Source: Methylosinus sp. Sm6
GTDB lineage: Bacteria; Pseudomonadota; Alphaproteobacteria; Rhizobiales; Beijerinckiaceae
Direction: 5' to 3'
Assembly: GCF_019802345.1 (NCBI RefSeq)
Contig: NZ_JAINDZ010000002.1
Span: forward strand, 158,603 to 222,602
Length of the DNA stretch: 64,000 nt
The notes under the pieces were generated by a model. The model worked only from the letters and a program-made list of their open reading frames with translations, had not been told where the DNA came from and did not search any database. Shown piece after piece: positions 1 through 15,854 of the stretch (its first letter is position 1; the number at the start of each line of letters is the position of its first letter). Made by a program: the position numbers and the translations under genes.

Positions 1-1313
1 TCAGGCAATGGCTTGATGCCGTCTTCCTCCTCAGGCTCGGCGTCCCCGTCCTCGACCTTTCCGCCGACCGTAATAATGGCGACACGCGATGCAGGATCGT
101 CACAGACGCCTGCGTGCTTTACATCGCCCTTTACGTCGCATGCTTCGTCCTCGCGTCGGATGTAGCCGCGTTCGATCTTGACGTCGCCGTCATTATCGAC
201 GCTGAGAAAAGCGCCCGCCCGCACGACATCGGCGGGATCGTAGACGGCGGGACGCTCATCGAAGGCTTCGATCGCTTTCTCGACCTCCGCCATGCGGGCG
301 TCGACCTCGTCCGGCACGTCCTCGCCGTCAGGGCATGAATCCGCAAGCTGTTCGAATTCCTCCTGAAGCGCATGATAGGTCTGCTGCTCCTCATCGGTCA
401 GTTCGGGCTCTTTGCCGATGATGCGACGCAGCCGCGACGTGTGCCCATACGGAAAATCGACAGCGGCTTCGATCCATTTCCAGCCCTCGGCGTGAAGAGT
501 CTCGGCTTCCTGACGGAGTTTGTCGGCGACGAGCCGATCGAGCAGCGCTGAATCCTGAAGCCAGCCTTCGCCATCTTCGTCGAAGAGATCGTGAACGACG
601 GCGCCGCCAGAGGATTCGTATAACGCGAGTCCTACGAATAGTGCGCGCTTGTCCGATGTGTGAACGGCACCTTCTGTCAATTGCTGCCGGATAAGGTGCG
701 GCGACTTATTGTAGGAGAGCGTCGCCCACACGCGTTCCTGCCGCGCATGGTCGTCCGTCACAGTGAACGCCATGAGCTGTTCGAGCGTCATCTCGTCCTC
801 GGCGTAAAGCTCCAACAGTTTCGGCGAGACGGATGCGAGCTTGAGACGTTGCCGCACGACCGTCGCGCTGACGAAGAACCGGGTGGCGATTTCTTCCTCG
901 CCGAGACCTTGTTCGCGCAACGTTTGAAAGGCGCGGAACTGATCGAGCGGATGCAACGCCACGCGCTGCACGTTCTCGGCCAGCGAGTCTTCCTCGGCGA
1001 TACCGTCGGTGCGGATGATGCAGGGAATCGCCTGTGTCTTGCCGAGCCGCTTCTGCTTGACCAGCGATTGCAGGGCGCGGTAGCGGCGGCCTCCTGCGGG
1101 TATTTCATACATCCCGGTCGGCTCGCCGTCGGCGCCGCGAACCGGCCGCACGCTGAGGCTCTGAAGGAGCCCACGGCGTGCGATGTCCTCGGCCAGCTCC
1201 TCGACCGAAATTCCGGCCTTCACCTTCCGGACGTTCGCCTGGGAGAGAATAAGCTTGTTGAAGGGGATGTCCTGGGCCTGGTTCAGGACGATTTTCGTTT
1301 GAGCGCTTGTCAT
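1..1313 (-). CDS. ParB/RepB/Spo0J-family partition protein, 3' end beyond window
   Basis: The frame is open from an ATG at 1313 to base 1 without a stop, giving at least 437 residues. An AGGAG ribosome site lies 7 bases before the ATG. The N-terminal part reads as a ParB nuclease-like domain (PFNKLILSQANVRK, then the box EIPAGGRRYRAL near residue 75, then LAENVQR near 115). A helix-turn-helix region follows (GEEEIATRFFVSATVVRQRL). The rest is acidic and typical of the long ParB-like proteins on rhizobial plasmids and integrated elements. Such proteins bind centromere-like sites or act as nucleases or CTPases on DNA. No ParA is visible; it could lie outside the window. The gene shares strand with the defence operon but sits 142 bases behind it, so co-transcription is possible but unproven. 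Confidence 0.85.
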   Translation of the reverse strand, partial: MTSAQTKIVLNQAQDIPFNKLILSQANVRKVKAGISVEELAEDIARRGLLQSLSVRPVRGADGEPTGMYEIPAGGRRYRALQSLVKQKRLGKTQAIPCIIRTDGIAEEDSLAENVQRVALHPLDQFRAFQTLREQGLGEEEIATRFFVSATVVRQRLKLASVSPKLLELYAEDEMTLEQLMAFTVTDDHARQERVWATLSYNKSPHLIRQQLTEGAVHTSDKRALFVGLALYESSGGAVVHDLFDEDGEGWLQDSALLDRLVADKLRQEAETLHAEGWKWIEAAVDFPYGHTSRLRRIIGKEPELTDEEQQTYHALQEEFEQLADSCPDGEDVPDEVDARMAEVEKAIEAFDERPAVYDPADVVRAGAFLSVDNDGDVKIERGYIRREDEACDVKGDVKHAGVCDDPASRVAIITVGGKVEDGDAEPEEEDGIKPLP

Positions 1314-1455
1314 AAGAGGTCTCCTCGACGGGCCAGCCGAAAGACTCTCTCTCGACCTTCAACCCTGTCATCGAGACGCCTTCACCCTCTTACTCTTTTG
1401 GACCGCCACCTTCGGCCACGAAAACTCCCCAAATATTGCGTTGCCGTTCGTCGGT

Positions 1456-3516
1456 TCAGTCGCTTCCTGCCTCCTCAGCAAGATTTGGATTTTCTGTGTC
1501 GTCGTTAATCCCCCAAGCTTCCAGAACTCCAGTAAGAGGAAACCGCTCGTTCTTGATCCAATCTGCATACGGCGCAGCCGTCGTGCTCCACGGCTGTTGC
1601 TTCGGAATTTTGATCTGTACTCGCGACGGGACGTGAACGGCACTGCCAAACACGATGGCTTCACCGGAAGCCAGTACTGTAACCTGATCGAGCAGACGTT
1701 GCGCTTGTCTTGGAATGATGCGCTTAAAATGGTCGATGTCGTCGGGGTTTTGGAGTCGATGAGAGAAAAAGTTTGCGCATTGACTGATTATCGTCGGGCT
1801 TATTTCGCTTGGCCGCTGGCTGGCGACAATGAGGGACAAGCCGAACTTGCGCCCTTCCTTTGCCACCCGCTCAAACGCTTTTCTGGAAAGAGCTTGACCG
1901 CGATCCTCGCTTTGGCGGGAAGGTCGGGCATAATTGTGCGCCTCCTCCAATACGAGAACCCATGGGTTCGAATAACGCTGGCTTGCCTGCAACTTCTCCC
2001 TTGCTTCGAGCAAAATCCTGCCAATTGTCGAACAGATGAACGGCAAAGCCTCGTGCGAGAGCATAGACAGATCAAAAACAGTGATCTTCGAGGCTCCGGT
2101 TTCAAAGCCAAGGCTCCTGAACCATTTTCCCGTGCTGGTGATGCCCAACTCGTCGAAATTCGTGAAAACAGACCAGCGCCGGTCGGCCAGTCGTGTCTTT
2201 AACCGCATGCGCAGAGTCGTTAGATGCTGATCGATCTGTGAAGCCTCCTCCTGAGACGCTGCCGCTGCAAGAGTTGCCGTATTTCGAAGGGCGGCTGTCG
2301 AGAAATAAGTCGGTGTATCGCCGCTTCTGATTGATTCCGAAGAGGCTGGTGCCGTCGCAATCTTGTCCTCAACAGCGGCGATCAGCGGGACCAGCGCAGC
2401 ATTGATCGCAACGCCGTTATCCACCGGTTCACCATAGAAGTTCTTGTATTCTTGTCCGGTCTTCACGAGATAAGGGGCAATCGTCGCCTTAAGCGGGCCG
2501 ACGTCCAGATCGCTCCCTGAAAGGTAATTTTCGATAGCGAGGTAAATTGCCCTCGCTTGATTCTTCTTAAGGGCATTTAGCGGATACATCTGTTGGATCG
2601 AGGCCAACGCCTCCGCCATGAAGTCGGCCTCGACCTTGGCTTCGCCAGCGGATTTTCCCTTAAGAAAGGCCCACCACGCCTTTAGTACCGGTTGCTGTGT
2701 CTGTTCGGACGCACTGAGCCACTCGCAAATTTCCTCCGAGTTCATCAGCCAGATCGGGACCGACAGCTTCTTGCCATTGACGTAGGCCTGATTTGGTTCT
2801 GGCGTATATGTCCGATGCTCCTCCGACAGGAATGCGTTGGCATATTCGCCATTGATGTCGAGGATGAAAATGTGGGGATCGCGTGCCCCCGCAGCGTTTA
2901 CTTTTTCATTTTCGAGCACGCCGCGTAGAAGGCTGGCGACGGTATAAGACTTGCCGGACCCTGTGTTACCGACAATCGCAAGCGGGCGCGAGAAGAGGTC
3001 ATTAAACGAGGCTTTGACTCGCGTGTTTTCGTCGCCGGTCTGATGACCAAGCTCCAGGGCAAAATCGAAGTCGCCGTCCGTCCAGCCCTGAGGGCGGTTG
3101 CGTTTTGGAGGCTGGCCAAAAACGCAGGATAGTATCTCCGGGTTGGCGACCTCTGCAGGGGTGTCCAGTGTGGGCAGCATCGTGATTCCGGCATCGAATA
3201 TCCATTGGCTCCTGCCCACCTGCCGGATGGTTCCAAGCAATTGCACGGACGCAATTCGCCGTGGTTTCGTCAACTCAAGAGATAGTTCGTCGTCCTGAGT
3301 AGGATCGTAGCTCTCGCGGGCTTCAAGATCCGAGAGGTTGCCGATGGCATGGGACCCGGCACCAAGGTCAAATGTTAAGAAGGAGTTGATGGCGACGGCC
3401 CGTTGGACGCCGTCCAGTGTTGCCCGCGATGAAGATTTGGCGTCCGGGGCAAGTTCGACCTTCAGGCGAAAGCCGCTGACGGAAACAACGTGCCCGATGA
3501 CGCGCGACTGCTCCAT
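1456..3516 (-). CDS. HerA-like hexameric ATPase/helicase (DUF87), partner of SIR2
   Basis: This is a 686-residue HerA/FtsK-superfamily ATPase. An N-terminal beta-barrel-like region precedes the Walker A motif GNTGSGKSYT near residue 180. The Walker B motif VLVLEEAHNY lies near 523, and VASQRPSEIS follows as the sensor segment. HerA proteins pump or unwind DNA as hexamers. When paired with SIR2 they form a known two-gene anti-phage system in which HerA assembles the SIR2 subunits. The ATG at 3516 overlaps the SIR2 stop by one base (TGATG), so translation is coupled. A TTG one codon upstream is also possible. It is the last gene of the defence operon, and no hairpin terminator is obvious after it. 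Confidence 0.9.
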   Translation of the reverse strand: MEQSRVIGHVVSVSGFRLKVELAPDAKSSSRATLDGVQRAVAINSFLTFDLGAGSHAIGNLSDLEARESYDPTQDDELSLELTKPRRIASVQLLGTIRQVGRSQWIFDAGITMLPTLDTPAEVANPEILSCVFGQPPKRNRPQGWTDGDFDFALELGHQTGDENTRVKASFNDLFSRPLAIVGNTGSGKSYTVASLLRGVLENEKVNAAGARDPHIFILDINGEYANAFLSEEHRTYTPEPNQAYVNGKKLSVPIWLMNSEEICEWLSASEQTQQPVLKAWWAFLKGKSAGEAKVEADFMAEALASIQQMYPLNALKKNQARAIYLAIENYLSGSDLDVGPLKATIAPYLVKTGQEYKNFYGEPVDNGVAINAALVPLIAAVEDKIATAPASSESIRSGDTPTYFSTAALRNTATLAAAASQEEASQIDQHLTTLRMRLKTRLADRRWSVFTNFDELGITSTGKWFRSLGFETGASKITVFDLSMLSHEALPFICSTIGRILLEAREKLQASQRYSNPWVLVLEEAHNYARPSRQSEDRGQALSRKAFERVAKEGRKFGLSLIVASQRPSEISPTIISQCANFFSHRLQNPDDIDHFKRIIPRQAQRLLDQVTVLASGEAIVFGSAVHVPSRVQIKIPKQQPWSTTAAPYADWIKNERFPLTGVLEAWGINDDTENPNLAEEAGSD

Positions 3517-4886
3517 CAAGCCTCCACCGGCCCGTCTTTGGCCTTCTTGAGCTGATCTTCGAAAGCCCGTAGGCGCTTATAGTCGTCAAGCCACTTCACA
3601 TCGGGCATGACGTTTTGCGCGAAGTCGGCGAAGGTCGCGAGCTTGTAGGAGCATCCACGACCAGCTTCGACTCGCTCTGAAAGGACGAACGCTCGCTGAC
3701 CGAGGCTCTGATATCTCTTCACTCGTTCGATGATGGGAGCCGATGGATTCGGTTCGACAATCAGCATGACCAACGAAGGATTCATCAGAGCGGTTTCAAT
3801 GATGCGCGTGACGTGGTCGTCACCAAATCCGTACCCCGCGACAATCAAGAAGGTCTGCGGTTGATTCAAACGGGCGTGGAAGAGCCGGAACAAGTGAGCA
3901 TACGGCATGTCCAGAGTTTGCGTAAACTTCTGGCAGGTCGGTAATATACCGAATGACTCGATGGTGTCGAACTCCGCGCTGACAAGCATTGCGGCCTTAC
4001 CTTTGGGCTCCGCAGCACGATAGGCTTGGGCAAAGGCTAAATCCTGGTGCTGCGCCCTGAAGCGATCCGCCTCGTCCATTCGCCAGTGGATCGAGCCGTG
4101 CAACTTGTAGAACTGAAGAAACTTATCGAAGCGGCGCACCCGCCCTTCGGCGACATCTCCCGGATAGTATACATCAAGACCATACACGGCGGGATCGAAA
4201 CGAGAGTTGGCTTTCCCAGAAAATCCATCGAAATATTGAATGCCTAACTCTTCCATAGCCTGCTCGAAAAGCGTGTCATAGTTGAGCGTGAAAAGGTGAG
4301 TTCGCCCGAGCGTAGCATCTCGTGCAATAAGCTTTGCAAGAAACGGAATGTGGCCTGACGATTCCCCTGCGGTATTGGCGCCAGATAGTTCGCCACGATC
4401 TAACTCAAGTGCGCATTCGGCAAATATTGCTTTTTCGATAAGCCGTCGAAGCTCCTTCTCGCCGGTAGCAGTGAGCAAAACATCATCTTTCCAATAAACG
4501 GCTTTAATGGGTGATTTATTGCTGCTTGATAAGCTGGATGCATTAAAGACATAGCCAAGCCACTCTTCGAAATTGCCCGAGCCGAAATGATTGGTCTTTT
4601 TCCAGGCAATAACGGCTTTGGCTTCGTCAGTTAGTGGACAGCTTTCGACCGCTTCAAGAACCAAGCATTCAAGATTATTTACACTTGGCCCCGTCATCAG
4701 TCGGCCACCGGCCCCCACGGAACATCCCGCAGCGGTGAGGACAACCACGTTCTCCATCCGCAGCCAGTCGGCGAGCAGCGCCTGAATGCGTCGCAGGCCA
4801 TCTTCCTTGCTTTTACCAGCAAGGAGATCTGCGCTCTCTCCCGCCGATACAGGGGAGATCAACTGGTACGGACACAGCTCGATCAA
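3516..4886 (-). CDS. SIR2-like NAD-degrading domain protein
   Basis: The 456-residue protein has the SIR2 nucleotide-binding motif LTAAGCSVGAGG near residue 50, TLNYDTLFEQA near 202, the catalytic-His segment KLHGSIHW near 260, and the C-terminal strand GYGFGDDH near 352. Bacterial defence SIR2 proteins hydrolyse NAD when phage is sensed. I infer that role here because the next gene is HerA. The first Gly of the usual GAG triplet is Ala, which may or may not alter NAD binding. The start is a TTG that overlaps the Res stop by four bases (TTGA). A strong GGAGG lies seven bases upstream of it, and the frame is well formed from there. A later ATG would remove 43 conserved-looking residues. Confidence 0.88.
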   Translation of the reverse strand: MIELCPYQLISPVSAGESADLLAGKSKEDGLRRIQALLADWLRMENVVVLTAAGCSVGAGGRLMTGPSVNNLECLVLEAVESCPLTDEAKAVIAWKKTNHFGSGNFEEWLGYVFNASSLSSSNKSPIKAVYWKDDVLLTATGEKELRRLIEKAIFAECALELDRGELSGANTAGESSGHIPFLAKLIARDATLGRTHLFTLNYDTLFEQAMEELGIQYFDGFSGKANSRFDPAVYGLDVYYPGDVAEGRVRRFDKFLQFYKLHGSIHWRMDEADRFRAQHQDLAFAQAYRAAEPKGKAAMLVSAEFDTIESFGILPTCQKFTQTLDMPYAHLFRLFHARLNQPQTFLIVAGYGFGDDHVTRIIETALMNPSLVMLIVEPNPSAPIIERVKRYQSLGQRAFVLSERVEAGRGCSYKLATFADFAQNVMPDVKWLDDYKRLRAFEDQLKKAKDGPVEA

Positions 4887-7831
4887 AATATCACCTCCGC
4901 TAACGAAGTGACGACACTGAAATCCACCCCGATTGTTTCAAAATGCCTGCGACCACAGGCGATTTTCTGGTTTTCTTTCGTGCGCCGTTCCTCCGAATCC
5001 AGCGTGCTTTTGGTCTCACGCACGAAATAGAGCTTCTCTTCACGCTCGGTGACGAAGGCCCAATCGGGATTGTACGAACCGATGGGTGTGTCGATCTTGA
5101 ACCATGATGGAAGCTTGACGAAGAGCTTGACCGCTTCGTTGTGGTCCAGATCGCGAGCAAATTGCTTCTCGACCTCGGATTCGTATTCGATGGCGTCGAA
5201 CAGAGATTTTTCCCGGTTCTGCACCTCGTAGAGGTTACTCAAATACCGGATAATTCCTTCTTCGGCGTCTTGTTCGATACGGCTTTGCTCCCAGTAGGCC
5301 CCGGCCACTTTCTCATATTTGATACCTTCCAGCATCAGGTCGTGCAGCGCACGCGAAATTTCCTTCGCGACCGCCGCCATGAATGCCTGCGGATTGATCT
5401 TGAACTCAGGCAACCGCCCGGAGCGCTTCAATACCTCGGCGAGTGTGTGCCGAGTCAGCTCGGTTTCCTTCTGTAAGAAGGCGAGAATGTCGGGCAGCAC
5501 CCTGACTGGTTCCGCGTCACGCATGCGCGTGGCAATCTGCTTGTCCGCCGACACGCCCGCGTCGGTAATATCCACCTCGGCCACAGTGGTTGCGATGCGC
5601 GGCGCCTTGATCGGCTCGATCTGCCTTATGCGAGCCAGTGCGCGGTCGATCAGGTCGGCGGTGTTAAAAGTCACGCGGTAGCGCGTGCGAGGTTTGATCT
5701 TCTCCCAAAGTTTCTGGAAATCCTCGCTCAATTGGACTTCCTTGCGGAATTTCACCTCTCGCCGATCCCGGGCGTTGACGATACGGTTCTTGAAGACCTT
5801 ACTGTTGATCGCGTCCGTGATCGCGGCGCGAAGGTCTTCGTAGCCCTTGGGCACTTTCAGCTCGAAGTGCGGGTTCTTTGGGTCGAACTTATCCAGAATG
5901 TCACCATCGGCGCTGATGTATTCGCCCGCGACGAGGCTGGCCCATATCTTCCTCGACTCGTCCTGCCCGATCTCGGCTTCGGTTCCGTCCTCGGCGCGTC
6001 GAACGAGCTTGGCAAAAGCGATCTTTTCGATCTTGCCGAAGCGAATGCCGAAATCCTCCTCGAATTCGGTCTGGAGTGATCGTGCGAACTCTTCATAAGA
6101 CTCGTTGGCTATGACGGTCAGGCGGTTGACGGTTTCATCATGCACGCGCTCCCCCGCCGCGTTGACAGGCAGGCGCAGGCCGCGCCCGATCTCCTGCCGC
6201 TTCTTGTCGGCGGACTGGGTCTCATTGAGGGTGCAAATCTGGAAGACGTTTGGATTGTCCCACCCCTCCCGCAATGCGGAATGGGAGAAGATGAAGCGCA
6301 GGGCCACGGCGGGGTCGAGCAGCCGCTCCTTGTCCCGCATGATGAGGTTGTAGGTATTCTCGTCGTCGGCGGTATTGCCACGCGTGTCCTTGGCGTGGCC
6401 CTGCTTATCCTGCGAGAAATAGCCGTTGTGAACCTCGGCAACGTCAAAGAGGATCAAGTCTTTGTAAATCGGCTTGGCGGTCAGCTCACGATAGGCTTCC
6501 TCGAACCATTGGCCGATCTTGCCCAGGCTGGTGGTACCGCCCTCGTTGTAGATTCGGTAATTGGCGACGCGGTCGATGAAAAAGAGCGAGAGAACCTTGA
6601 TGCCCTTGCCCTTGAGTGCACGCTCCTTCTTGAGGTGCTGCTCTACGGTCTCATAGACCTGAGCCTTCATGATGTCGTCAGCCTGGCCTCCGGTTTCCTG
6701 TCCGAGCTCAAGGAACCGGCCCTGATTGAATTCGACATATTCCGCGCCTGGGGTGCAGTCGATGTTCTGCACGATGTAGCCGTTGCGGTACGCCTCGCGC
6801 TCACCGGACTTCACGAACAGGTCGTCGCCCTGCTTGACCCACATCTTGGTCGGCTTGGGTCCAGACTTGCCTTCCTTGTGAATCTCGACGCGGGCGCGGA
6901 TGCCGTTGGTGTTGTCCGTGGCGATCAGCTTGACATAAGCATCGTTGAAGTTGTCGTCGGAGCGGACCGACGCGACCTCGATCCGCTTCACGAGGCGCAG
7001 GTCGTAGGCCCGAATAGGATCGAGCTTGTAGACGAGGTTGTAGGGGTTCTTGTGCGTTGCGCTGTAGCGCAGCGTCACCATCGGGTTGAGATTGCCGATG
7101 GCCTTGCGCGATTTTTCGGTCGTATCGACGCTCTGCGGCTCGTCGATGATGACGATGGGGCTGGCGGCCTGAATGAACTCGATGGGCCGCCGCCCGGACA
7201 TGCGGTCGTTCTCGCGGTTGATGACGTTGAGCTTCTTCAGCTCGTCCTCCGTCATGTCCGCTAAATCCTTGTCGGCCACATCCTTCTGGAAAGATTGGAT
7301 GTTGATGACCATGATCTGAATCTGGTTGCTGGTGGCGAACTGGCGCACCTTGCCGAGGCGCTTGCTGTCGTAAACGAAGTGGTCGAACGGCGCTTTGTCG
7401 TAGAGTGTCTGGAAATGCTCCTTCATCATGTCGATGCTTTTGAGCACGCCCTCGCGGATGGCGACGCTCGGCACGACGATGATGAATTTTTTGAAGCCGT
7501 AGGTCTTGTTCAGTTCGAAAATGCTGCGCAGGTACACATACGTCTTGCCGGTGCCGGTTTCCATTTCGACGGAGAACTCGCGCCCTGCAAATGCCGCGAC
7601 CTTCTCGATCCCGTTGGTTTCCTGAAGCCGGTGAACGTTCTTAAGGATTTCATCGTCCGGCAGGTTGAGTCGGTTGCCCATGCCAAGCTCGTTCTGGAAC
7701 AGCCCGCCGATCTGGATGGACTGCAATGCCATCGCACCGGTCTGCACGAAGGGCTGGCCATCGAACACGCCGACGACGGAATTGATCGCGTCTTGCTGAT
7801 ATTGAAGGGAGGGGTCGAATTTGAGCTTCAC
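4883..7831 (-). CDS. Type III restriction enzyme Res subunit (helicase-nuclease)
   Basis: The 982-residue protein is a superfamily 2 helicase with Walker A METGTGKTYVYL near residue 95, motif II IIDEPQSVD near 227 and motif VI EIGRGLRLP near 549. The C-terminus carries a PD-(D/E)xK-like signature: NPDW near 920 and RETKS near 940. Res subunits use ATP to communicate between two Mod-bound sites and then cut. I chose the GTG at 7831, which begins VKLKFDPSLQYQ. A GAGGGGG ribosome site precedes it and the family usually starts M-K-L-K-F. A TTG at 7846 overlapping the mod stop is the alternative. All core motifs look intact, so the enzyme should be active with the upstream Mod. Confidence 0.92.
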   Translation of the reverse strand: MKLKFDPSLQYQQDAINSVVGVFDGQPFVQTGAMALQSIQIGGLFQNELGMGNRLNLPDDEILKNVHRLQETNGIEKVAAFAGREFSVEMETGTGKTYVYLRSIFELNKTYGFKKFIIVVPSVAIREGVLKSIDMMKEHFQTLYDKAPFDHFVYDSKRLGKVRQFATSNQIQIMVINIQSFQKDVADKDLADMTEDELKKLNVINRENDRMSGRRPIEFIQAASPIVIIDEPQSVDTTEKSRKAIGNLNPMVTLRYSATHKNPYNLVYKLDPIRAYDLRLVKRIEVASVRSDDNFNDAYVKLIATDNTNGIRARVEIHKEGKSGPKPTKMWVKQGDDLFVKSGEREAYRNGYIVQNIDCTPGAEYVEFNQGRFLELGQETGGQADDIMKAQVYETVEQHLKKERALKGKGIKVLSLFFIDRVANYRIYNEGGTTSLGKIGQWFEEAYRELTAKPIYKDLILFDVAEVHNGYFSQDKQGHAKDTRGNTADDENTYNLIMRDKERLLDPAVALRFIFSHSALREGWDNPNVFQICTLNETQSADKKRQEIGRGLRLPVNAAGERVHDETVNRLTVIANESYEEFARSLQTEFEEDFGIRFGKIEKIAFAKLVRRAEDGTEAEIGQDESRKIWASLVAGEYISADGDILDKFDPKNPHFELKVPKGYEDLRAAITDAINSKVFKNRIVNARDRREVKFRKEVQLSEDFQKLWEKIKPRTRYRVTFNTADLIDRALARIRQIEPIKAPRIATTVAEVDITDAGVSADKQIATRMRDAEPVRVLPDILAFLQKETELTRHTLAEVLKRSGRLPEFKINPQAFMAAVAKEISRALHDLMLEGIKYEKVAGAYWEQSRIEQDAEEGIIRYLSNLYEVQNREKSLFDAIEYESEVEKQFARDLDHNEAVKLFVKLPSWFKIDTPIGSYNPDWAFVTEREEKLYFVRETKSTLDSEERRTKENQKIACGRRHFETIGVDFSVVTSLAEVIF

Positions 7832-7842
7832 GCCATGCCCCC

Positions 7843-9792
7843 TCAAACCGTCTTGAAGACGATTTCGGATTCCTCGGCCTCGGCCCGCGCCCGGAAGGTC
7901 TGAACCGCGTTCGCCTTGAGCTGGTCGTTGCCCTTGAAGCCTTCGTCCAGACAGATGACCTGCAACGGGTTTGCCTCCGCCAGAGCATCGATCAGTTCCG
8001 ACGTGATCTCCTTCTCAAGGCAAATGAGCATCGTACCGTCCTGGATAGAGAACACCTCCTTGCCCGCAAGCTTGATCGCTTTGACCTCGGTGGTCAGAGG
8101 GAAGCCGGCCTTGAGCAGCAATTCGTAGAGAACGTCTTCGCTAGTGCTGGCAGCCGAAAGGTGATCGACGTGGAACTCCAACTGTTGAGCAAGTTCGTCG
8201 GTATCGGCAGCACCGTTTCCGTTCCACAGCTTAAAATTGGAGCGGTCGAGGCTTAGCACCTTGAAGCCGAGGTCCGTGTGCCTTCTCCGCTCCAGGTCGA
8301 ACATGCCAGCCGGCTGTTCCTGCCACTTCTTGATAACCCGACGAATCCTCTCCTTGCCAATTTCCGCTATGGTACGGAAACCTGCTTTCGCAGCGTTCGA
8401 CGTTTCGTCGGTCGGCTCCGGAAGTTGCACGACGATGAACCTCCGGCTGCCGCCGTCCTCGACGTTCTGCTCGATCACCGCCTGCGCTGTGGCGCAGGAG
8501 CCTGCGAAAAAGTCCAGCACGATGTCGCCGGGGCCGTTGCAGGCGTGGTCGATCACCCTGCGGATCAGCTGAACGGGTTTGGGATTGTTGAACACCTTGC
8601 CGGGGATCAATGTGTCAAGGTCTCGCGTCCCCTCGTCGGTGTGGCCGGCATAGTCATGCGCCCAGAAGTTGACGGGTGTGAGCCCCCTTGCTTCTGAAAG
8701 GAACATCTTGATCGACGGGACGGCCGCCCTCCCGTCCGGTCCCCAGTAGAGCCGATTGTCGGCCAATAGCTCATGAAAGGCTTCTTCCGAGCGTCGCCAG
8801 GCATTTGTGGTTGGAAGCACGACGCCGCCGGTGTTCGGATTCTTGAGCGGATAGCAGAGGTTCGGACGGTCCTGCGGGGATGCAGGATTGAGGAATGAAG
8901 CGCCCTTCCAAACGCCCCGCGGATCGTTGTCGGGATTTGTATAGCGCGCATCGGCCTCCTCGGTGCGCGGCAGCAGACTGACCTCAAATGCCTCTGATTT
9001 AGCGTAGACTAATAGATGTTCAACGACAGTCGTGAAATCGACCGTGTTGTTGCTGCGCGTGTACCGCTTCTGCCAAGCAATGTCGGCCTTGAAATTCTCC
9101 TCGCCGAAAATCTGATCGCACAACTCCCGCAAGCGACTCAATTCGTGGTCGTCGATGGAGATGAAGATAACGCCGTCGTCGCGAAGAAGATTCCGCGCAA
9201 GATAGATGCGCGGGTACATCATATTGAGCCAGTTGGAATGGTATCGCCCAACCGTATCCGTGTTAGTGGAGAAGCGGCGTCCCTCGGCATCGGCCTGACT
9301 GGTGTAGGCGAGATAAGTCTCTAGTGTTTCCGCATATTTGTCTGGATAGATAAACTCTTGGCCAGTATTGTATGGCGGATCAATATAGATCAGCTTAATC
9401 TTGTCAAAGTACGCCTTCTGCAAAAGTTTCAGGACTTCCAGGTTGTCTCCCTCGATGAAGACATTGCCGGTGACCTCGAACCCCACCGAGTCGGTGCGCT
9501 TTGGTTTTAGAGTCGCTACGCTCGGCTGCTGAATGATTTTCATGCACTGGGCTTTGCCAGGCCATGACAGACCAAATCGCTCCTGGCCGGCCTCAACTCT
9601 ATCGCCCAACGCTCGCTTCAATTGCTCAAAGTCGATCTGTCCCTCGGCGAGGCACTCTGGCAGCGTCTGCGCGAGGAAATTGCGCAAGAGGGCGCGTTTG
9701 CGGTCCGCGACATCGTCGGATGTCAAAGCGAGCCTTGCCGGGCTGCCCGATTCCATGCCGGCGAGCGGCACTTCTTTATCTTCTACAATCAT
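7843..9792 (-). CDS. Type III DNA adenine methyltransferase Mod
   Basis: The 649-residue protein is a beta-class N6-adenine methyltransferase. The catalytic motif DPPYNTGQEF lies near residue 136, and the AdoMet motif DFFAGSCATAQAV lies near 425, in the order typical of type III Mod. The region between them contains the target-recognition domain. It would methylate one strand of a short asymmetric site and guide the Res subunit encoded next. The open frame extends 56 codons upstream, but the ATG at 9792 overlaps the PLD stop by one base (TGATG) and starts a normal Mod N-terminus, so I take that. The motif-I Cys replaces the commoner Gly (SGTT to SCAT). Confidence 0.92.
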   Translation of the reverse strand: MIVEDKEVPLAGMESGSPARLALTSDDVADRKRALLRNFLAQTLPECLAEGQIDFEQLKRALGDRVEAGQERFGLSWPGKAQCMKIIQQPSVATLKPKRTDSVGFEVTGNVFIEGDNLEVLKLLQKAYFDKIKLIYIDPPYNTGQEFIYPDKYAETLETYLAYTSQADAEGRRFSTNTDTVGRYHSNWLNMMYPRIYLARNLLRDDGVIFISIDDHELSRLRELCDQIFGEENFKADIAWQKRYTRSNNTVDFTTVVEHLLVYAKSEAFEVSLLPRTEEADARYTNPDNDPRGVWKGASFLNPASPQDRPNLCYPLKNPNTGGVVLPTTNAWRRSEEAFHELLADNRLYWGPDGRAAVPSIKMFLSEARGLTPVNFWAHDYAGHTDEGTRDLDTLIPGKVFNNPKPVQLIRRVIDHACNGPGDIVLDFFAGSCATAQAVIEQNVEDGGSRRFIVVQLPEPTDETSNAAKAGFRTIAEIGKERIRRVIKKWQEQPAGMFDLERRRHTDLGFKVLSLDRSNFKLWNGNGAADTDELAQQLEFHVDHLSAASTSEDVLYELLLKAGFPLTTEVKAIKLAGKEVFSIQDGTMLICLEKEITSELIDALAEANPLQVICLDEGFKGNDQLKANAVQTFRARAEAEESEIVFKTV

Positions 9793-10856
9793 CAGTACCA
9801 GCCATACAATCTCGTGGGCGTGCGGCCCCACGTGCCAAGCGCGAGCGAACGATCTACAACGTCCATGAGAGGCTGCCCGGGCTTCAATATCTCGAACGAC
9901 AGGACGCCCGCCTCGTCGTGCTCGACGTAGGCAATGCCTGTCTTGTTTGCGCGAGCCCAATCGACCATTGGCGCTGCATTGGGGACGTTCAGGCGAAACA
10001 TACCGTTGTCTTCGTAGAACCTGAACTTGAAGGTGCGGGTGATCCCGTCAGCGCAAAGTATGTCGATGGAGCCATCTTTGGATGGCTTTCCAAAAACTCT
10101 GCGGAGCACAAGCCCGGCCTCTTTGGGAAACTCAACCTGCAAGTTATATTCGCCCGTGAATGACTGAAGCCCCGCCCAGGCAACGGAAGCAGCCGTCTCC
10201 GATATGGCTTTCTCGGCAGTCTTGGGCGGTGTCGCGGTCTTTGGCGGGGTGCCGGCGGCGGTGGTCTTGAGAGACCTGTCCACAACTCCGAGCGTCACAA
10301 GGTCTTCAGGTCTGCGGTGACGATTCCGAAGCGCGAAATATTTCTCGTAGTCTTTCAGTTTCGCCTTAGTCAGGGGCACACCGAGTTGCCAACAATCAAG
10401 CCAAGCCCGAGCGGCGGAGTCTCGGCTGTGAGGCGCAACGCTCCAAAACGCGCATTCGCCATTCCTGGAGAACGCGCCGAGGCTGAGATTCTGTGATCCT
10501 GCAATGACAAGCGAGAGACCATCGACGCCCTTTGTCTCATCGAAGCTGTTGGCGCCAACGTACAGTTTGGGATGGAAGGTGCCGGGCAGACTGTCAACGA
10601 CTCTAACCCCCCATCCGCTATCCATGGCAGTCTGAAGCGCCTTCGGATGAGTCACACCGTCTTTCGTGTCGGCAACGAGCCTGACTTCGTCGACACCTCC
10701 TTCATCAAGAATGCTCTTCACGAGATTGAATCCCGACGCGGACACATATGCCACGGCGAGGCCCACGACGGACGGCTTGGTGTGCAGGATGTGCTTCCTA
10801 AGAAGCGCCTTGTATGTATTGCCACTAATGCCCGTTGTGACGACTGAACTTGTCAT
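9792..10856 (-). CDS. PLD-fold putative nuclease
   Basis: The 354-residue protein has one HxK-type phospholipase-D motif. It reads TFHPKLYVG near residue 94, with GSQNLSLGAF about 25 residues later. This is the layout of bacterial PLD-superfamily nucleases and helicase partners that work as dimers. The C-terminal half (after about 200) has no domain I recognise. A Pro/Thr-rich linker sits around residues 205-225. It lies between the SNF2 helicase and mod; its stop overlaps the mod start, and its own start is 16 bases after the SNF2 stop. DrmC of DISARM is also a PLD protein that occurs with a methylase and SNF2 helicase, but similarity to DrmC cannot be claimed from this reading. Confidence 0.8.
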   Translation of the reverse strand: MTSSVVTTGISGNTYKALLRKHILHTKPSVVGLAVAYVSASGFNLVKSILDEGGVDEVRLVADTKDGVTHPKALQTAMDSGWGVRVVDSLPGTFHPKLYVGANSFDETKGVDGLSLVIAGSQNLSLGAFSRNGECAFWSVAPHSRDSAARAWLDCWQLGVPLTKAKLKDYEKYFALRNRHRRPEDLVTLGVVDRSLKTTAAGTPPKTATPPKTAEKAISETAASVAWAGLQSFTGEYNLQVEFPKEAGLVLRRVFGKPSKDGSIDILCADGITRTFKFRFYEDNGMFRLNVPNAAPMVDWARANKTGIAYVEHDEAGVLSFEILKPGQPLMDVVDRSLALGTWGRTPTRLYGWY

Positions 10857-10872
10857 TGCGTGTGCGCCCCCA

Positions 10873-13722
10873 TCACACTATCTTAAACCTAATGGCGAAT
10901 AGCTCCTCGTCGGACACGCTCTGTCCGAGGCGCTCTTCCACCTGATCCAGAAGACCGTCCTTCTGAACCTCAATATCCTTCGCGGCGGCGTCATAGGCGC
11001 GCCATGCTTCATCGCGCCTGGCTTCCAGTGCACGGGCCTGCCGTTGCAAGGCCAGCTTATCCGGCAGATTGCCGGTCTGGCGGATCGCCTTCTTGAGCGC
11101 CTTGATCTGCTCGTCCAGCTCTTTCATGTCCGCCTTCAGCCCAGCGCGCTTGTCCTCCGCCCAGTTGTCGAGCTTATCCATTTCCTCGTCGAACCATGCG
11201 GATTGCCGCGCGGCCATGTCGTCCAGGATGGTCTTACGCGCGCTTTCGACGCTCTGCTTGACCGGATCGGACAGGGTCAACTCTGCGGCGCCGTTGATAC
11301 GGGCTGGAAGCTCGAAGAGGCGCATGGCATCCTTCGGATCGAGCCGTCCACCGTCATCCGTAATCGCCGCCAGAATGATGTGATCCTGATCGTCGGTCCC
11401 GCGTACCGAAACCTTGTGCGCGACGAGCGTACCGCCCCTGCCGACAAATCGCTCGATAGCAACGGCCGTCTGCGGCCATGCCGCGTAATCGAACACGACG
11501 GACGCGCCGTTGAGCTTGCGCGTCGCGGCCATAGATAAAAGGTGCTGCGCCAGAGGATGGCCGAGCCGATAGCGGTGTCCGTCGATACCGTGACGGGCCA
11601 TGAAATAGATGCCCGGCGCGACGTTGATCCCGGCAGGCGAGCCTTTGAGGGTGAAGGTGAAATAGTCGTCGTCGAACTTGGCCTGCTTTCCGAGTTCGTG
11701 CTTTGTCACTGCCCAGAGCATCCGTGCGTAGCGGTCGAGATATTCCTTGCTCTGGCTCATATTGATCTTGAGGCGGTCATGAACCTCGGCATCGAAGTTT
11801 TCGAGGAGCTTACGGCGCGTGTCCTCCATGGTGACGGTAATGTTGGAGTCCATTTCGGTACGCAGCCGTTCGAACTCCGCCTCGATGTCCTCGGTCGAAC
11901 GGCAATTCTGATAGATGGAGACGATGCGCTTCTCGAACTCGACGCCGGATTCGATAGCGCCAAGCACTTCGTCGCTCGCGCCAAACACGCCTGAAAAGAG
12001 CTTGAATTTCTCGGCAAGCAATTCGTACACGCGCTGGTCTGCTGCATTGTTTTTATTGAGGAAATTGACCACTACCACGTCGTAGCGCTGGCCATAGCGG
12101 TGGCAACGCCCGATACGCTGTTCGATACGCTGCGGATTCCAGGGCAGATCATAGTTGACCGCCATGGAGCAGAACTGGAGGTTGATGCCCTCGGCGGCAG
12201 CCTCGGTCGCGATCATGATCGAGGCTTTTTCGCGGAAGTAGTCGACGAGCGCCGCCCGCATGTCGGCGGTACGCAAGCCGGTCACACGGTCGGTTCCTTT
12301 ATGGCGTTCGACCCACGCCCCGTAGATCGCCTTGGACTGCGCGTCGGAATTCGAGCCGTTGAACAGGACGAGCTTGCCGTCGTAGCCGTTCGCGCCAAGC
12401 AGGCGTACAAGATATTCCTGGGTGCGCCGGGACTCGGTGAAGATGATGGTCTTTTCGGCCCCGCCCAGTTCCAGCGCCTTGGCGAACCCGGCGCGCAGCG
12501 CGCTGAGGAGCGCTTGCCCCTTGGCGTTTTCGGAAATTGAAACCGCAAGGTCGCGGAAGGCCCGCAGATCGGCGATCTCCCGCTCGATGTTGGCGATGTC
12601 GTCGGGCGTCAGAAGTTCGGATTCTTCGCCTTCTTCTTCCCATTCGTCCGCGACGTCCTCATATTGTTCGTAGTCCTCGGCGATTTCCTCTTCGAGCTTG
12701 TGGCGTAGGTGTTTGTCGTCCCGAAGCTGGCGCTCCAGCTTACGTGCAAGGGAATCGAGCGCACCGGCAATGGCGAAGGTCGAAGACGCCAGCAGCTTAC
12801 GCATGATGAGGGTCATCAGCGAACGCTGGCTCGACGGCAGGGCTTGCAACGAGGGCCGCCGCAGATAATCGGACACCATGTCGTAAAGCTTCTGCTCCGC
12901 CTCGGTCGGCATGAACTCCTGCGGTATGGGGATGCGGTTGGTGTAGCGGATATATTCAAGCACCTGCCGCCGCAAGGTGCGGTGGCAGACGGGCTTGAGG
13001 CGGCCTTTCAGCTCGTCGAAGAGATTATCGCCCGCAAGACGTGCATACTGGGCGCGAAAACTCTTGGCATCGCCGAAGGCATAATCGTCGACCAAGCTTA
13101 CAAGCCCGTACAGCTCCATGAGCGAGTTCTGAAGCGGAGTTGCCGTGAGCAGTACCTTGGGGGCGTTGGCAAGCGCGCCTTTCAGCGTCTTGCCGATGCG
13201 ATTGTCGAGCCGATAGACATTGCGCAGCCGGTGCGCCTCGTCGATCACCACCAAATCCCACGGGATCACCATCAGCTCGTCGGCATGCCGGGCGGCGAAC
13301 TGGAACGAACAAATGACAAGGGCCTTCTGCTCGAAGGGCCGGCGCATGCCGTCCTTGGCCATCTTGTTGTAATTGCGCGCCTCGAGGATCACCGATGGAA
13401 GAAAGAACTTTTCCGCGATTTCTTGCGCCCATTGTTTACGGAGGTTCGCAGGCGTGACGACAAGGATGCGGCGGCGGCCTTCTGTCCATTTCTGTGCAAG
13501 GACAAGTCCGGCCTCGATGGTTTTACCAAGGCCTACTTCGTCAGCGAGAATTGCGCCCTTGGACATCGGGGACTTGAACGCGAACAACGCCGCCTCGACC
13601 TGATGGGGGTTGAGGTCGACCTGAGCATCCATGAGAGCGCCAGCCAGCTTCTCGGCATCCGCAACGGAATGCCGCCTGCCCAGTTCATGAGCGAATAGCT
13701 TGGCGTGGTACTCTGTTATCAC
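10873..13722 (-). CDS. SNF2/RapA-type DEAD-like helicase
   Basis: The 949-residue protein is a Swi2/Snf2 ATPase. It has LADEVGLGKTIEAGLVLAQ near residue 60, the DEAH box VIDEAHRLRN near 157 and motif VI IGRCHRYGQRYD near 537. The sequence AAAEGINLQF marks the second RecA lobe. A very acidic coiled segment (about 325-375) separates the lobes. A charged coiled coil fills the last 120 residues. Proteins of this form translocate on double-stranded DNA without full unwinding. DISARM class 1 has a related DrmD. The GTG start overlaps the HTH gene stop by four bases (GTGA), which supports one mRNA. The immediately downstream PLD gene could be the effector for its movement. Confidence 0.88.
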   Translation of the reverse strand: MITEYHAKLFAHELGRRHSVADAEKLAGALMDAQVDLNPHQVEAALFAFKSPMSKGAILADEVGLGKTIEAGLVLAQKWTEGRRRILVVTPANLRKQWAQEIAEKFFLPSVILEARNYNKMAKDGMRRPFEQKALVICSFQFAARHADELMVIPWDLVVIDEAHRLRNVYRLDNRIGKTLKGALANAPKVLLTATPLQNSLMELYGLVSLVDDYAFGDAKSFRAQYARLAGDNLFDELKGRLKPVCHRTLRRQVLEYIRYTNRIPIPQEFMPTEAEQKLYDMVSDYLRRPSLQALPSSQRSLMTLIMRKLLASSTFAIAGALDSLARKLERQLRDDKHLRHKLEEEIAEDYEQYEDVADEWEEEGEESELLTPDDIANIEREIADLRAFRDLAVSISENAKGQALLSALRAGFAKALELGGAEKTIIFTESRRTQEYLVRLLGANGYDGKLVLFNGSNSDAQSKAIYGAWVERHKGTDRVTGLRTADMRAALVDYFREKASIMIATEAAAEGINLQFCSMAVNYDLPWNPQRIEQRIGRCHRYGQRYDVVVVNFLNKNNAADQRVYELLAEKFKLFSGVFGASDEVLGAIESGVEFEKRIVSIYQNCRSTEDIEAEFERLRTEMDSNITVTMEDTRRKLLENFDAEVHDRLKINMSQSKEYLDRYARMLWAVTKHELGKQAKFDDDYFTFTLKGSPAGINVAPGIYFMARHGIDGHRYRLGHPLAQHLLSMAATRKLNGASVVFDYAAWPQTAVAIERFVGRGGTLVAHKVSVRGTDDQDHIILAAITDDGGRLDPKDAMRLFELPARINGAAELTLSDPVKQSVESARKTILDDMAARQSAWFDEEMDKLDNWAEDKRAGLKADMKELDEQIKALKKAIRQTGNLPDKLALQRQARALEARRDEAWRAYDAAAKDIEVQKDGLLDQVEERLGQSVSDEELFAIRFKIV

Positions 13723-13913
13723 TTGTCGTTGCCCCCTTGCTGCTCCTCAACCTTGCGTCTGATCCACCTTGCAATTTCCTGCCGCTCAAAACGCCATGAT
13801 CCCCCGACCTTGAAACCGGGAACCTTGCCTGCCGAGGCCAGCTTGTAGGCGGTCTTCTCATTGATCTTGAGAAGTTCCGCTACCTCCCGGATCGTCAGGA
13901 TTTCGTCGTTCAT
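13719..13913 (-). CDS. Small excisionase/MerR-type HTH protein, first gene of the defence operon
   Basis: The 64-residue protein is a single winged helix-turn-helix of the excisionase family. It begins with LTIREVAELLKINEKTAYKL and is followed by the wing GFKVGGSWRFER. Its stop overlaps the SNF2 start by four bases. As first gene in the unit it could be an autoregulator of the defence genes, or a DNA-recognition subunit. Excisionase-like proteins also control mobile elements, but no integrase is seen in the window. The ATG at 13913 is the only sensible start. Its promoter should lie within 13914-14100, where I see no convincing -35/-10 pair on this strand. Confidence 0.8.
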   Translation of the reverse strand: MNDEILTIREVAELLKINEKTAYKLASAGKVPGFKVGGSWRFERQEIARWIRRKVEEQQGGNDK

Positions 13914-14228
13914 GCGTCCAAGCCGCAGGTTGATTCGAAAGAGAATAGGCGAAAATTAGAGAAAATCCGAGAGGAAGATCGACACCTTTGCACGCTATCG
14001 TTGTGGCGCGGTCCGACTGGATCATTCAGGAAAGTCCCTGCCGATAGAGGTCGACGAGCATCTTTGCTGGGGGCGTTCAATGGCCGCATTAGGCGCATAG
14101 CCTCTACGAGGACGCCTATCGACCGGACGAAATCACAGAAGCGCAATCCGACACGATGCCGGGCGGCATTGCACGATTTAAATACCGGTCACCGAAGCTA
14201 CAGCGCAGTGTCACCGATCATTTACATA
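13914..14228. other. Intergenic region between divergent defence operon and hipBA
   Basis: No gene is supported here. It must carry the minus-strand promoter of the defence operon. An AT-rich stretch around 13940-13975 is the likeliest place, although no clean consensus was found. The small open frame on the minus strand (13910-14146) overlaps this region without a ribosome site and looks spurious. Confidence 0.5.
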
Positions 14229-14258
14229 TTGACATGTCACCGTACGATGTCATATAGA
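14229..14258 (+). promoter_or_regulatory. hipBA promoter with overlapping palindrome
   Basis: TTGACA at 14229-14234 is followed, after 18 bases, by TATAGA at 14253-14258, a good sigma-70 layout just before hipB at 14281. The -35 box is part of the perfect palindrome TGACATGTCA (14230-14239). Further GTCA/TGAC half-sites occur to 14277. HipB proteins repress their own promoter, so this palindrome is a reasonable operator. The spacing and sequence differ from the E. coli HipB site, so this is inference. Confidence 0.55.
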
Positions 14259-14280
14259 TGTGTGATCGAATGGTGTCATT

Positions 14281-14577
14281 ATGAATGTCCGAACTGCTCT
14301 CGAACTGGGCGCTGCGATCCGCGAGCGCCGCCGCCAGTTGAACCTCGACCAGGATAGACTGGCGAAGATCGTCGGCGTGAGCCGGAAATGGATCATCGAC
14401 GTCGAGAAAGGCAAGACGCGTGCGGAGATCGGGCTGATTTTGCGTACACTCGACGCCCTGGGGATCAGCGTGTCGCTCGACACAACGGAAACCGGGGTGT
14501 CCGGAGCCAATACCCCCGACGCGATCGAAACGCCCGACATCGACAGCGTCCTTGATCGGACGCGGGATCGCCGATGA
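14281..14577 (+). CDS. hipB: HipB-like XRE-family antitoxin/repressor
   Basis: The 98-residue protein has a lambda-repressor-type HTH at residues 8-62 (GAAIRERRRQLNLDQDRLAK, then VSRKWIIDVEKGKTRAE). An acidic C-terminal tail probably contacts HipA. The stop overlaps the hipA start by four bases (ATGA). HipB binds DNA as a dimer, neutralises HipA and represses the pair. There is little Shine-Dalgarno before the ATG, so the transcript leader may be very short. The alternative is a simple XRE regulator, but the adjacent hipA makes the antitoxin role strong. Confidence 0.85.
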   Translation: MNVRTALELGAAIRERRRQLNLDQDRLAKIVGVSRKWIIDVEKGKTRAEIGLILRTLDALGISVSLDTTETGVSGANTPDAIETPDIDSVLDRTRDRR

Positions 14578-15854
14578 CAGCCGAACTCCTCGCTCTCGCT
14601 AATGGCCGCAAAGTCGGGCGCGTGATCCGCGATCAGCGCGGGCGTCTGGCCTTCGTCTACGAGGAGACATGGCGCGCCGCACAGGGCGCCTATCCGCTTT
14701 CGCTCTCGATGCCGCTCACGGCGGAGAAGCACGGTCATCAGCCGATCGACGCATTCCTGTGGGGGCTGCTGCCCGACAATGAAGCCGTGCTCGCCCGGTG
14801 GGCGCGGCGGTTTCAGGTGTCGGCGCGCAATCCCTTCGCGCTTCTCTCCCATGTCGGCGAGGATTGCGCCGGCGCCGTTCAGTTCGTCCGCCCCGACAGG
14901 GTCGATGCGATCCTCGGCGAGGAGCGTGGCGCTGTGGAATGGCTGAACGAGGCGGACATCGCCGAACGCCTGAGAACCCTTCGGGCCGACCATGCCGCAT
15001 GGCGAGCGCCCAGCGACACGGGGCAGTTCAGCTTGGCGGGAGCCCAGCCCAAGACGGCTCTTCTTTGCGAGAACGGGCGATGGGGCGTCCCGTCGGGACG
15101 AACGCCGACGACCCATATCCTCAAGCCGCCTACCGGCGAATATGACGGCCATGCCGAGAACGAGCATCTCTGCATGTCGCTCGCCAGCCGGCTCGGCCTG
15201 CTCACGGCGCGTTCACGCGTCCAATGGTTTGGCGACGAGGTCGCCATCGTGATCGAGCGCTATGACCGGGATTGGACAGATTCGGCGATCATCCGGGTTC
15301 ATCAGGAGGATTTTTGCCAGGCGCTGGCGATTCCGCCGACGCGCAAATACGAGAATGAGGGCGGGCCGGGCGCACGCATGGCCGTCGATCTCCTGCGAAC
15401 CGTGTCGGGCCGGCCCCAGGAAGATGTGCAACGCTTCGTCGAGGCCGTCATTTTCAACTGGCTGATCGCGGGGACGGACGCGCACGCGAAGAACTATTCG
15501 CTGCTGATCGGCGCCCAAGGGCGGGCGCGGCTTGCCCCGCTCTACGACATCGCCAGCATCCTGCCTTACGGCTTCGATCCCCACCGGGTGCGTCTGGCGA
15601 TGAAAATAGGCGACACGTACAAGCTCCGCGACATCGGCGCGCCGCAATGGCGAAAATTCGCCGGGCAGCTTCGGCTGAATGGCGACGAAGTGTTGCACCG
15701 GATTCGGGAAATGGCGGCGATGCTCCCCGACCATCTGGCGGATGTGCGCCGGACCGCCGAGTCCGACGGAATCGCCCATTCGATCATGGCCAGGCTTTCT
15801 GACGCGCTGACAGAACGCGCCGACCGGTGCCGCAAGGCCATTGGTGAGTTATAG
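14574..15854 (+). CDS. hipA: HipA-like serine/threonine kinase toxin
   Basis: The 426-residue protein has the HipA N-terminal domain (GRVIRDQRGRLAFVYE, WGLLPDNE near residue 65) and the kinase C-terminal domain. Key segments are FSLAGAQPKTALL near 150, the catalytic loop GTDAHAKNYSLL near 300 and the metal-binding YDIAS near 325. Family members phosphorylate glutamyl-tRNA synthetase or other proteins and stop growth. The length is normal and no motif is missing. The last codons lie inside a 44-bp sequence that is repeated 358 bases downstream. A short perfect hairpin (ATAGAAC/GTTCTAT) follows the stop. Confidence 0.9.
   Translation: MTAELLALANGRKVGRVIRDQRGRLAFVYEETWRAAQGAYPLSLSMPLTAEKHGHQPIDAFLWGLLPDNEAVLARWARRFQVSARNPFALLSHVGEDCAGAVQFVRPDRVDAILGEERGAVEWLNEADIAERLRTLRADHAAWRAPSDTGQFSLAGAQPKTALLCENGRWGVPSGRTPTTHILKPPTGEYDGHAENEHLCMSLASRLGLLTARSRVQWFGDEVAIVIERYDRDWTDSAIIRVHQEDFCQALAIPPTRKYENEGGPGARMAVDLLRTVSGRPQEDVQRFVEAVIFNWLIAGTDAHAKNYSLLIGAQGRARLAPLYDIASILPYGFDPHRVRLAMKIGDTYKLRDIGAPQWRKFAGQLRLNGDEVLHRIREMAAMLPDHLADVRRTAESDGIAHSIMARLSDALTERADRCRKAIGEL

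Follow-up and report, generated by a model that had tools for sequence, protein, structure and literature searches.

In a 64,000-nucleotide stretch of DNA from Methylosinus sp. Sm6 (contig NZ_JAINDZ010000002.1, positions 158,603 to 222,602; the whole of this stretch is called the window below, and coordinates without a locus name refer to it), seven intact genes lie on the minus strand between positions 13913 and 1456. They encode, in this order, a small helix-turn-helix (HTH) protein, an SNF2 ATPase, a PLD-fold nuclease-like protein, the Mod and Res proteins of a type III restriction system, a SIR2-family protein and a HerA-family ATPase. Comparison with related loci revealed that what recurs is not a set of seven fixed genes but SNF2-Mod-Res, which a small HTH gene often precedes. 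Among close relatives of this core, the slots between its genes and past Res hold differing known abortive systems, some of them complete. The reading that we favor, with a probability of roughly 0.55, is that the cluster represents a type III restriction operon extended by an SNF2 ATPase and carrying exchangeable effectors, in this case the PLD protein and SIR2-HerA, the latter of which would drain nicotinamide adenine dinucleotide (NAD+) as a last line should restriction fail.

Of the SNF2 loci, 34 allowed a judgement with our own profiles, and in 33 of these SNF2 is followed by Mod and Res, in this order and on the same strand, the exception (L041) being an SNF2 gene with neither Mod nor Res in 14.4 kb; five further SNF2 loci were too short for a judgement. 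Left out of the 33 cores, besides L041, were L002 (SNF2 mostly deleted), L004 (contig end) and L043 (4.6 kb), as well as L035, L067, L068, L070 and L076, which have too little downstream DNA, while L020 and L024 were kept despite being broken. SNF2 matches at E≤1e-130 occurred in 7 of 385 genomes of the class and 19 of 398 genomes of the phylum (own genome included in each). A plasmid search matched 943 records, of which 45 reached a cover of 80% or more, and the 12 plasmid loci examined were chosen from 40 listed among these 943. A small HTH gene ahead of the core was detected with our own profile in 9 of the 33 cores (the window, L003, L013, L014, L016, L017, L039, L040 and L075) and is named in the database records of three more (L018, L020 and L021); since the profile is narrow, these counts are lower bounds. 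The arrangement exceeds chance, because a metagenome-assembled genome (L003) repeats HTH-SNF2-PLD-Mod-Res at 75-87% identity, and genome G316 (locus L039) repeats Res-SIR2-HerA together with the -4 overlap of Res and SIR2, the proteins being 77% (Res), 71% (SIR2) and 60% (HerA) identical to those of the window.

Three slots were defined, namely A between SNF2 and Mod, B between Mod and Res, and C behind Res, and any gene of at least 190 aa was counted as cargo. Slot A was occupied in 18, slot B in 10 and either of the two in 24 of the 33 cores; the automated counts were 17, 10 and 23, as the gene caller ran Mod over the PLD gene of the window, which was added manually, and the slot-B count falls to 9 without L024, whose slot-B frames lie in a transposon-broken stretch. 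The single cargo gene of L023 measures 198 aa in our own call and 170 aa in the database record, the cargo of L022 begins 414 nt past SNF2, and L017 additionally has a transposase. In 9 of the 18 slot-A loci the first passenger may start before the end of SNF2 (earliest start taken). Slot C held cargo, at gaps of at most 60 bases, in 8 of the 33 cores (L063 via short frames only, 720 nt past Res). The cargo that could be named by Pfam and PADLOC belongs mostly to defence families and comprises PLD, SIR2-HerA, AIPR, GmrSD, RhuM, AAA plus DUF4276, AlbA_2, a YhcG nuclease, a NERD nuclease, SMC-like ATPases, GajA-GajB and a Dsr2-like SIR2 protein of 1190 aa (478.4 bits); a few genes had no match at all. 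The same cargo can sit in two different slots: an AAA_21 plus DUF4276 pair lies in slot B of L016 and slot A of L024 (35 and 40%), RhuM in slot B of L073 and slot A of L074 (48%), and SIR2-HerA, present in 3 of the 33 cores, in slot C of the window and L039 and, as another subfamily (397.8 and 790.4 bits), in slot A of L021. Also seen among the cargo were a complete-looking Gabija pair (L073:2508-6571; GajA 838 bits, GajB 760.6 bits) 52 bases past Res of an SNF2-Mod-Res operon, and a slot-B family without a Pfam match in two loci whose cargo otherwise differs (L003:13033-13644 and L063:11577-12272; 203 and 231 aa, 59% identical), which is possibly a new effector. The slot-B genes L039:8928-10733 (GmrSD-like), in the genome of an alphaproteobacterium, and L021:19607-21304, on a plasmid from the Planctomycetes, are 62% identical, and both operons carry SIR2-HerA.

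Exchange was evident on cores close to that of the window. In Roseomonas (L002), whose Mod, Res and PLD proteins are 94, 93 and 95% identical to those of the window, a SPARDA pair is found 120 bases past Res, where the window has SIR2-HerA; its two proteins match the solved SPARDA entry 9jsb with 852.6 and 590.9 bits. The SNF2 gene of this locus (strain KE0001, L002:9023-9987) is mostly deleted, only residues 1-83 and 797-949 matching, and its PLD, Mod, Res and SPARDA frames are open. Both L002 and L003 have the order HTH-SNF2-PLD-Mod-Res, with no SIR2 or HerA match in either locus. A Rhizobium plasmid (L013) shares 91% identity with the window in SNF2 and 88% in Res but only 52% in Mod, and it carries a GmrSD/HNH gene in slot B and neither PLD nor SIR2-HerA. 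Mod-Res genes are also subject to replacement: on an SNF2 tree with 32 labelled rows, the three Res classes change 6 times, compared with a minimum of 2 and a shuffled mean of 14.9, so they are clustered yet have switched several times, and even the close SNF2 pair L072/L073 has different Res classes.

SIR2-HerA, in turn, occurs apart from the core. The class and phylum samples include seven other genomes with relatives of the window SIR2 protein (46-74% identity). One of them, G316, has the pair behind Res; for the other six, these samples contained no SNF2 match at E≤1e-130, and in their fetched surroundings (3.4 kb for G650, 19-20 kb for the rest) SIR2 adjoins HerA with no profile match to SNF2, Mod, Res or PLD. 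Near a more distant pair (G232, 31%) and a pair on a Shinella plasmid (52%), the core genes were likewise not found. As six of the seven other genomes have the pair without an SNF2 match, SIR2-HerA is a captured module that can stand by itself. The window and G316 would either have retained a pair lost by the closer cores L002, L003, L013 and L063, or have gained it separately.

The layout of the cluster in the original prediction, seven tightly joined genes on one strand, was borne out, with every frame open and junctions, from HTH to HerA, of -4, 16, -1, +11 (or -4), -4 and -1 (or -4) bases; its naming of type III Mod/Res and of SIR2-HerA was also correct, judging by profile matches and solved relatives. 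The first gene (13719..13913, minus strand as for all seven; 64 aa) encodes an HTH_17 or excisionase-like small DNA-binding protein (Pfam HTH_17, 61.8 bits), which is likely to be the operon regulator often placed ahead of the core. Next comes the RapA/DrmD-like SNF2 ATPase of the core (10873..13722; 949 aa), with SNF2-rel_dom (110.6 bits) and Helicase_C (65.2 bits) domains, a PADLOC DrmD match of 703.1 bits and GLGKT and DEAH motifs; its closest solved relative is RapA. The PLD-fold nuclease-like protein (9792..10856; 354 aa) is the passenger in slot A and matches PLDc_2 weakly (20.5 bits, cut-off 27). Mod (7843..9792; 649 aa), the type III DNA methyltransferase of the core, has an N6_N4_Mtase domain, the DPPYNT motif and matches to PADLOC MTase_III (654.4 bits) and EcoP15I Mod (217.5 bits). 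Res (4883..7831 or 7846; 982 or 987 aa), the restriction helicase-nuclease of the core, matches PADLOC REase_III (981.4 bits), ResIII (53.7 bits), RE_endonuc (132.9 bits) and EcoP15I Res (207.6 bits) and contains GTGKT, DEP and PDWA..ETK motifs. Its junction with Mod is +11 with a GTG start and -4 with an upstream TTG start, the GTG at 7831 being likelier than the TTG at 7846. The passengers in slot C are the SIR2-family protein (3516..4886; 456 aa; SIR2_2; PADLOC SIR2, 705 bits), whose TTG start overlaps the TGA stop of Res (junction -4), and its partner, the HerA-family ATPase (1456..3519 or 3516; 687 or 686 aa; DUF87/HerA; PADLOC HerA, 934 bits), with GNTGSGKS and EEAH motifs and matches to solved HerA relatives. 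The NYD and LHG motifs of the window SIR2 align with the SIR2 protein of the solved SIR2-HerA entry 8j4u, and the protein is likely to be an NADase. Catalytic motifs expected of active enzymes were found in SNF2, Mod, Res, SIR2 and HerA. Scans of the window for tRNA genes and Rfam families gave no matches.

The PLD protein contains HxK and GSxN motifs. Its AlphaFold model has a mean predicted local distance difference test score of 68.8 and is poor at residues 194-237 and 329-354, and only the PLD domain was used; the best solved matches of the model are SauUSI, BfiI and Salmonella Nuc, and the family profile matches 7clg_A (SauUSI) with E=0.0019. Few of the searched genomes have this family: it is present in 4 of the 33 cores, one of them distant (the window PLD being counted manually), in only the own genome among 150 relatives, in four loci of genome contigs, of which one is a weak match (31%, residues 28-152), and in one viral contig, and plasmids gave nothing but a weak Yoonia match. 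With so few PLD loci, SNF2, SIR2 and Res were used as context anchors in its place.

A direct repeat, ATTTTCTCTAATTTTC (13951..13966, minus strand), lies 37 nt upstream of the HTH start and is a candidate operator or promoter element. Repeats of the form (A/T)TTTTC-N5-TTTTC, with variants, are found just upstream of HTH in six close loci that were aligned, two of which (L002 and L013) have variants missing the exact pattern, and the repeat is claimed for these six only. The search pattern TTTTCTCYRATTTTC, with at most 2 mismatches, matched the window at the repeat alone (0.31 matches expected; one or more were seen in 27 of 100 shuffles). Conservation of the repeat in all cores was considered and rejected, as the pattern with exact spacing occurred within 400 bp upstream of SNF2 in only 5 of 40 loci (the window, L003, L035, L039 and L040). 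In the window, we infer that the repeat may serve as the operator of the HTH protein. A consensus scan of both strands from 1000 to 14300 gave 4 promoter-like sites against 4.9 expected, which is not above chance.

Starting from gene order and homology, we infer the following working. The HTH protein likely controls the promoter ahead of its own gene. Mod would mark host DNA, and unmarked DNA would be cut by Res with Mod. The SNF2 ATPase likely assists on DNA, because it stays while Mod-Res classes and cargo change, and the PLD protein would add a second nuclease. SIR2-HerA, presumably co-expressed from the same transcript, would sense infection on its own and deplete NAD+ as infection continues. 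One review ties Sir2 domains in defence to NAD+ depletion (PMC10952713), and Sir2-HerA is described in two others as an 18-subunit complex with NADase plus nuclease or genome-degrading activity (PMC12948488, PMC12198126). The layered defence of the original prediction stays the likeliest use of the cluster, with NAD depletion as the likely last line, whereas the fixed seven-gene form in which it was cast is unsupported.

Several observations weigh against the reading as an SNF2-extended restriction operon whose effectors are exchangeable. The sample of 33 loci was a selected one, nine of the cores have no cargo in slot A or B, and the HTH gene is not constant across cores. Two of the three SIR2-HerA cases, as well as the SPARDA and Gabija cases, are in slot C, where neighboring systems could merely stack. 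Cargo is not peculiar to SNF2 cores, as in two of eight control type III loci, taken from 40 listed rows, a named gene separates Mod from Res; another control locus, L095, has an unannotated 1.7-kb gap at this place. As to the single transcription unit proposed earlier, the operon-like packing of the genes agrees with it, but the scan described above found 24 terminator-like sites where shuffles gave 14.0, and a weak stem (4912-4890, operon strand) lies on the Res/SIR2 junction, which together argue mildly against free read-through; a promoter-like site (3970-3943, operon strand) is present within SIR2. Finally, the reviews PMC12948488 and PMC12198126 give phage DNA degradation as the mode of Sir2-HerA, in addition to NADase activity. 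Since a nuclease or genome-degrading activity is described there, direct attack of SIR2-HerA on phage DNA is also possible, and NAD loss as the last line is one option.

A rival explanation is passive stacking, in which a type III operon resides on a mobile element and passengers hitchhike in tolerated gaps, sharing a transcript by accident and having no functional tie. This explanation, which we regard as unlikely though the most serious of the alternatives, gains from the six genomes in which SIR2-HerA lacks an SNF2 match and from genome G243, where SIR2-HerA occurs by itself in a similar mobile element, accompanied by relatives of the ParB-like protein (58%) and of the strawberry-notch-type helicase frames (61 and 66%) of the window. 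It also gains from the SNF2 tree, on which cargo labels change about as often as shuffled ones (observed number and shuffled mean: PLD 4 and 3.9, SIR2 4 and 3.9, GmrSD 4 and 3.9, AIPR 4 and 4.8); cargo is unclustered on this tree, which shows turnover and leaves function undecided. On the other hand, the position of cargo inside 24 of 33 cores, often overlapping the preceding gene, its mostly defensive nature where it can be named, and the -4 Res/SIR2 overlap kept in G316 at 71-77% protein identity speak against stacking. The original prediction had set as its own test that SIR2-HerA and Mod-Res pairs regularly found apart from SNF2-PLD in close relatives would mean chance stacking. Half of this is borne out, by the six of seven genomes with SIR2-HerA relatives but no SNF2 match and by the presence of PLD in only 4 of 33 cores; SNF2-Mod-Res, which stays together, is no chance stack.

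A bolder reading, which we put forward as doubtful speculation, is that HTH-SNF2 may be a dedicated immune chassis, in which an SNF2 motor with a standard promoter and three cargo bays would accept various Mod-Res classes of type III restriction as well as entire abortive systems (SIR2-HerA, SPARDA, Gabija, Dsr2-like, AIPR), with a motor-restriction complex that would gate the firing of these weapons. Still more improbable is a guarded effector, in which Mod/Res or SNF2 would keep SIR2-HerA and other cargo inactive and free them when a phage inhibitor hits restriction. The embedding of cargo between restriction genes accords with such guarding, which is suggested for restriction loci generally, with PrrC-PrrI as precedent, in PMC3506569; yet the SIR2-HerA family is found without core genes in the fetched surroundings of six genomes, where the core is not needed as a brake. 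A fixed seven-gene composite system, as in the original prediction, or a variant of DISARM is very improbable, for although the seven genes are tight and on the same strand and SNF2 resembles DrmD, no other examined locus has all seven, PLD and SIR2-HerA vary independently, no DrmB is among the matches listed for the nine cluster-region proteins scanned, two of these lists ending at 25 rows, and SNF2 misses the DrmD_b cut-off (707.7 of 950 bits).

A ParB-like gene and strawberry-notch-type helicase frames, found 3' of HerA, look like a mobile-element backbone. In L031:982-5421, 3' of the operon, the strawberry-notch-type helicase is split into two frames (817 and 652 aa), and in G243 it is a single frame of 1418 aa. 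On the other side, a HipB/HipA-like pair (14281-15854) is transcribed in the opposite direction to the operon and lies 367 bases from the start of HTH.

Among known systems, the SNF2 ATPase of the window resembles DrmD of DISARM type I, and DISARM likewise includes a PLD protein; unlike in DISARM, the methyltransferase of the window is a type III Mod. According to PMC9252829, DISARM type I requires DrmA, DrmB, DrmC, DrmD and DrmMI, and it was rejected on the matches listed for the nine cluster-region proteins. MADS (the Mad1-Mad8 set) was rejected, as the HTH protein resembles MAD1 at 74.9 bits with a cut-off of 80, HerA matches mad8 with 79.2 bits, and no other Mad protein is among the matches listed for the same nine proteins. 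BREX (BrxC, PglZ, BrxX) was rejected as well, the PADLOC matches listed for these proteins including only helicase cross-matches to BrxH (best 231.8 bits). As in SIR2-HerA (Nezha), adjacent SIR2 and HerA genes of defence families are found in the window, but here the pair is joined to the end of Res. The named subtype was rejected because the NCBIfam cut-offs were missed (SIR2_antiphage, 148.1 of 500; HerA_antiphage_2, 224.6 of 850), and the window pair represents a divergent subfamily related to it. There is also kinship with type III restriction-modification of the EcoP15I type: Mod has methylase motifs and is related to EcoP15I Mod, Res combines SF2 helicase and endonuclease domains, both are homologous to their EcoP15I counterparts, and all catalytic motifs looked for are kept. 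Unlike EcoP15I, however, Mod-Res of the window stands behind HTH and an SNF2 ATPase of the RapA/DrmD-like kind and has passengers between and behind its genes. In type III operons of the helicase-DUF4391-Mod-Res kind, Mod-Res likewise follows a large helicase of accessory type and a small gene, but the helicase is distant (110-129 bits to our own SNF2 profile). This arrangement, parallel to the SNF2 cores, was seen in four of the eight control loci (L089, L090, L091 and L095), which lie on plasmids from Vibrio, Enterococcus, Acinetobacter and an archaeon, with DUF4391 in three of the four.

Earlier papers proposed that restriction operons of other kinds contain SNF2 or HKD domains (2008; PMC2292703) and that HEPN genes lie within restriction operons (2013; PMC3710099), and Makarova et al. 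(2012; PMC3506569) proposed that toxin or abortive genes, Sir2 included, reside in Type I and III restriction loci and displace each other repeatedly. In the literature searched, with subscription papers mostly outside reach, no description of an SNF2-Mod-Res platform with exchangeable slots was found, which weakly supports its novelty. The platform offers a testable case for the 2012 idea of restriction-suicide coupling, since nature supplies close cores whose main difference is the effector plugged into them. A comparison of such cores would tell whether restriction loci merely gather abortive genes or exert control over them, and new abortive systems could be sought in the slots of SNF2-Mod-Res operons. 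Like restriction loci of the PrrI-PrrC type with their embedded suicide genes, the window has probable abortive genes in a restriction locus; unlike them, its core includes SNF2 and offers three slots, and on close cores abortive systems of several genes are swapped as a whole.

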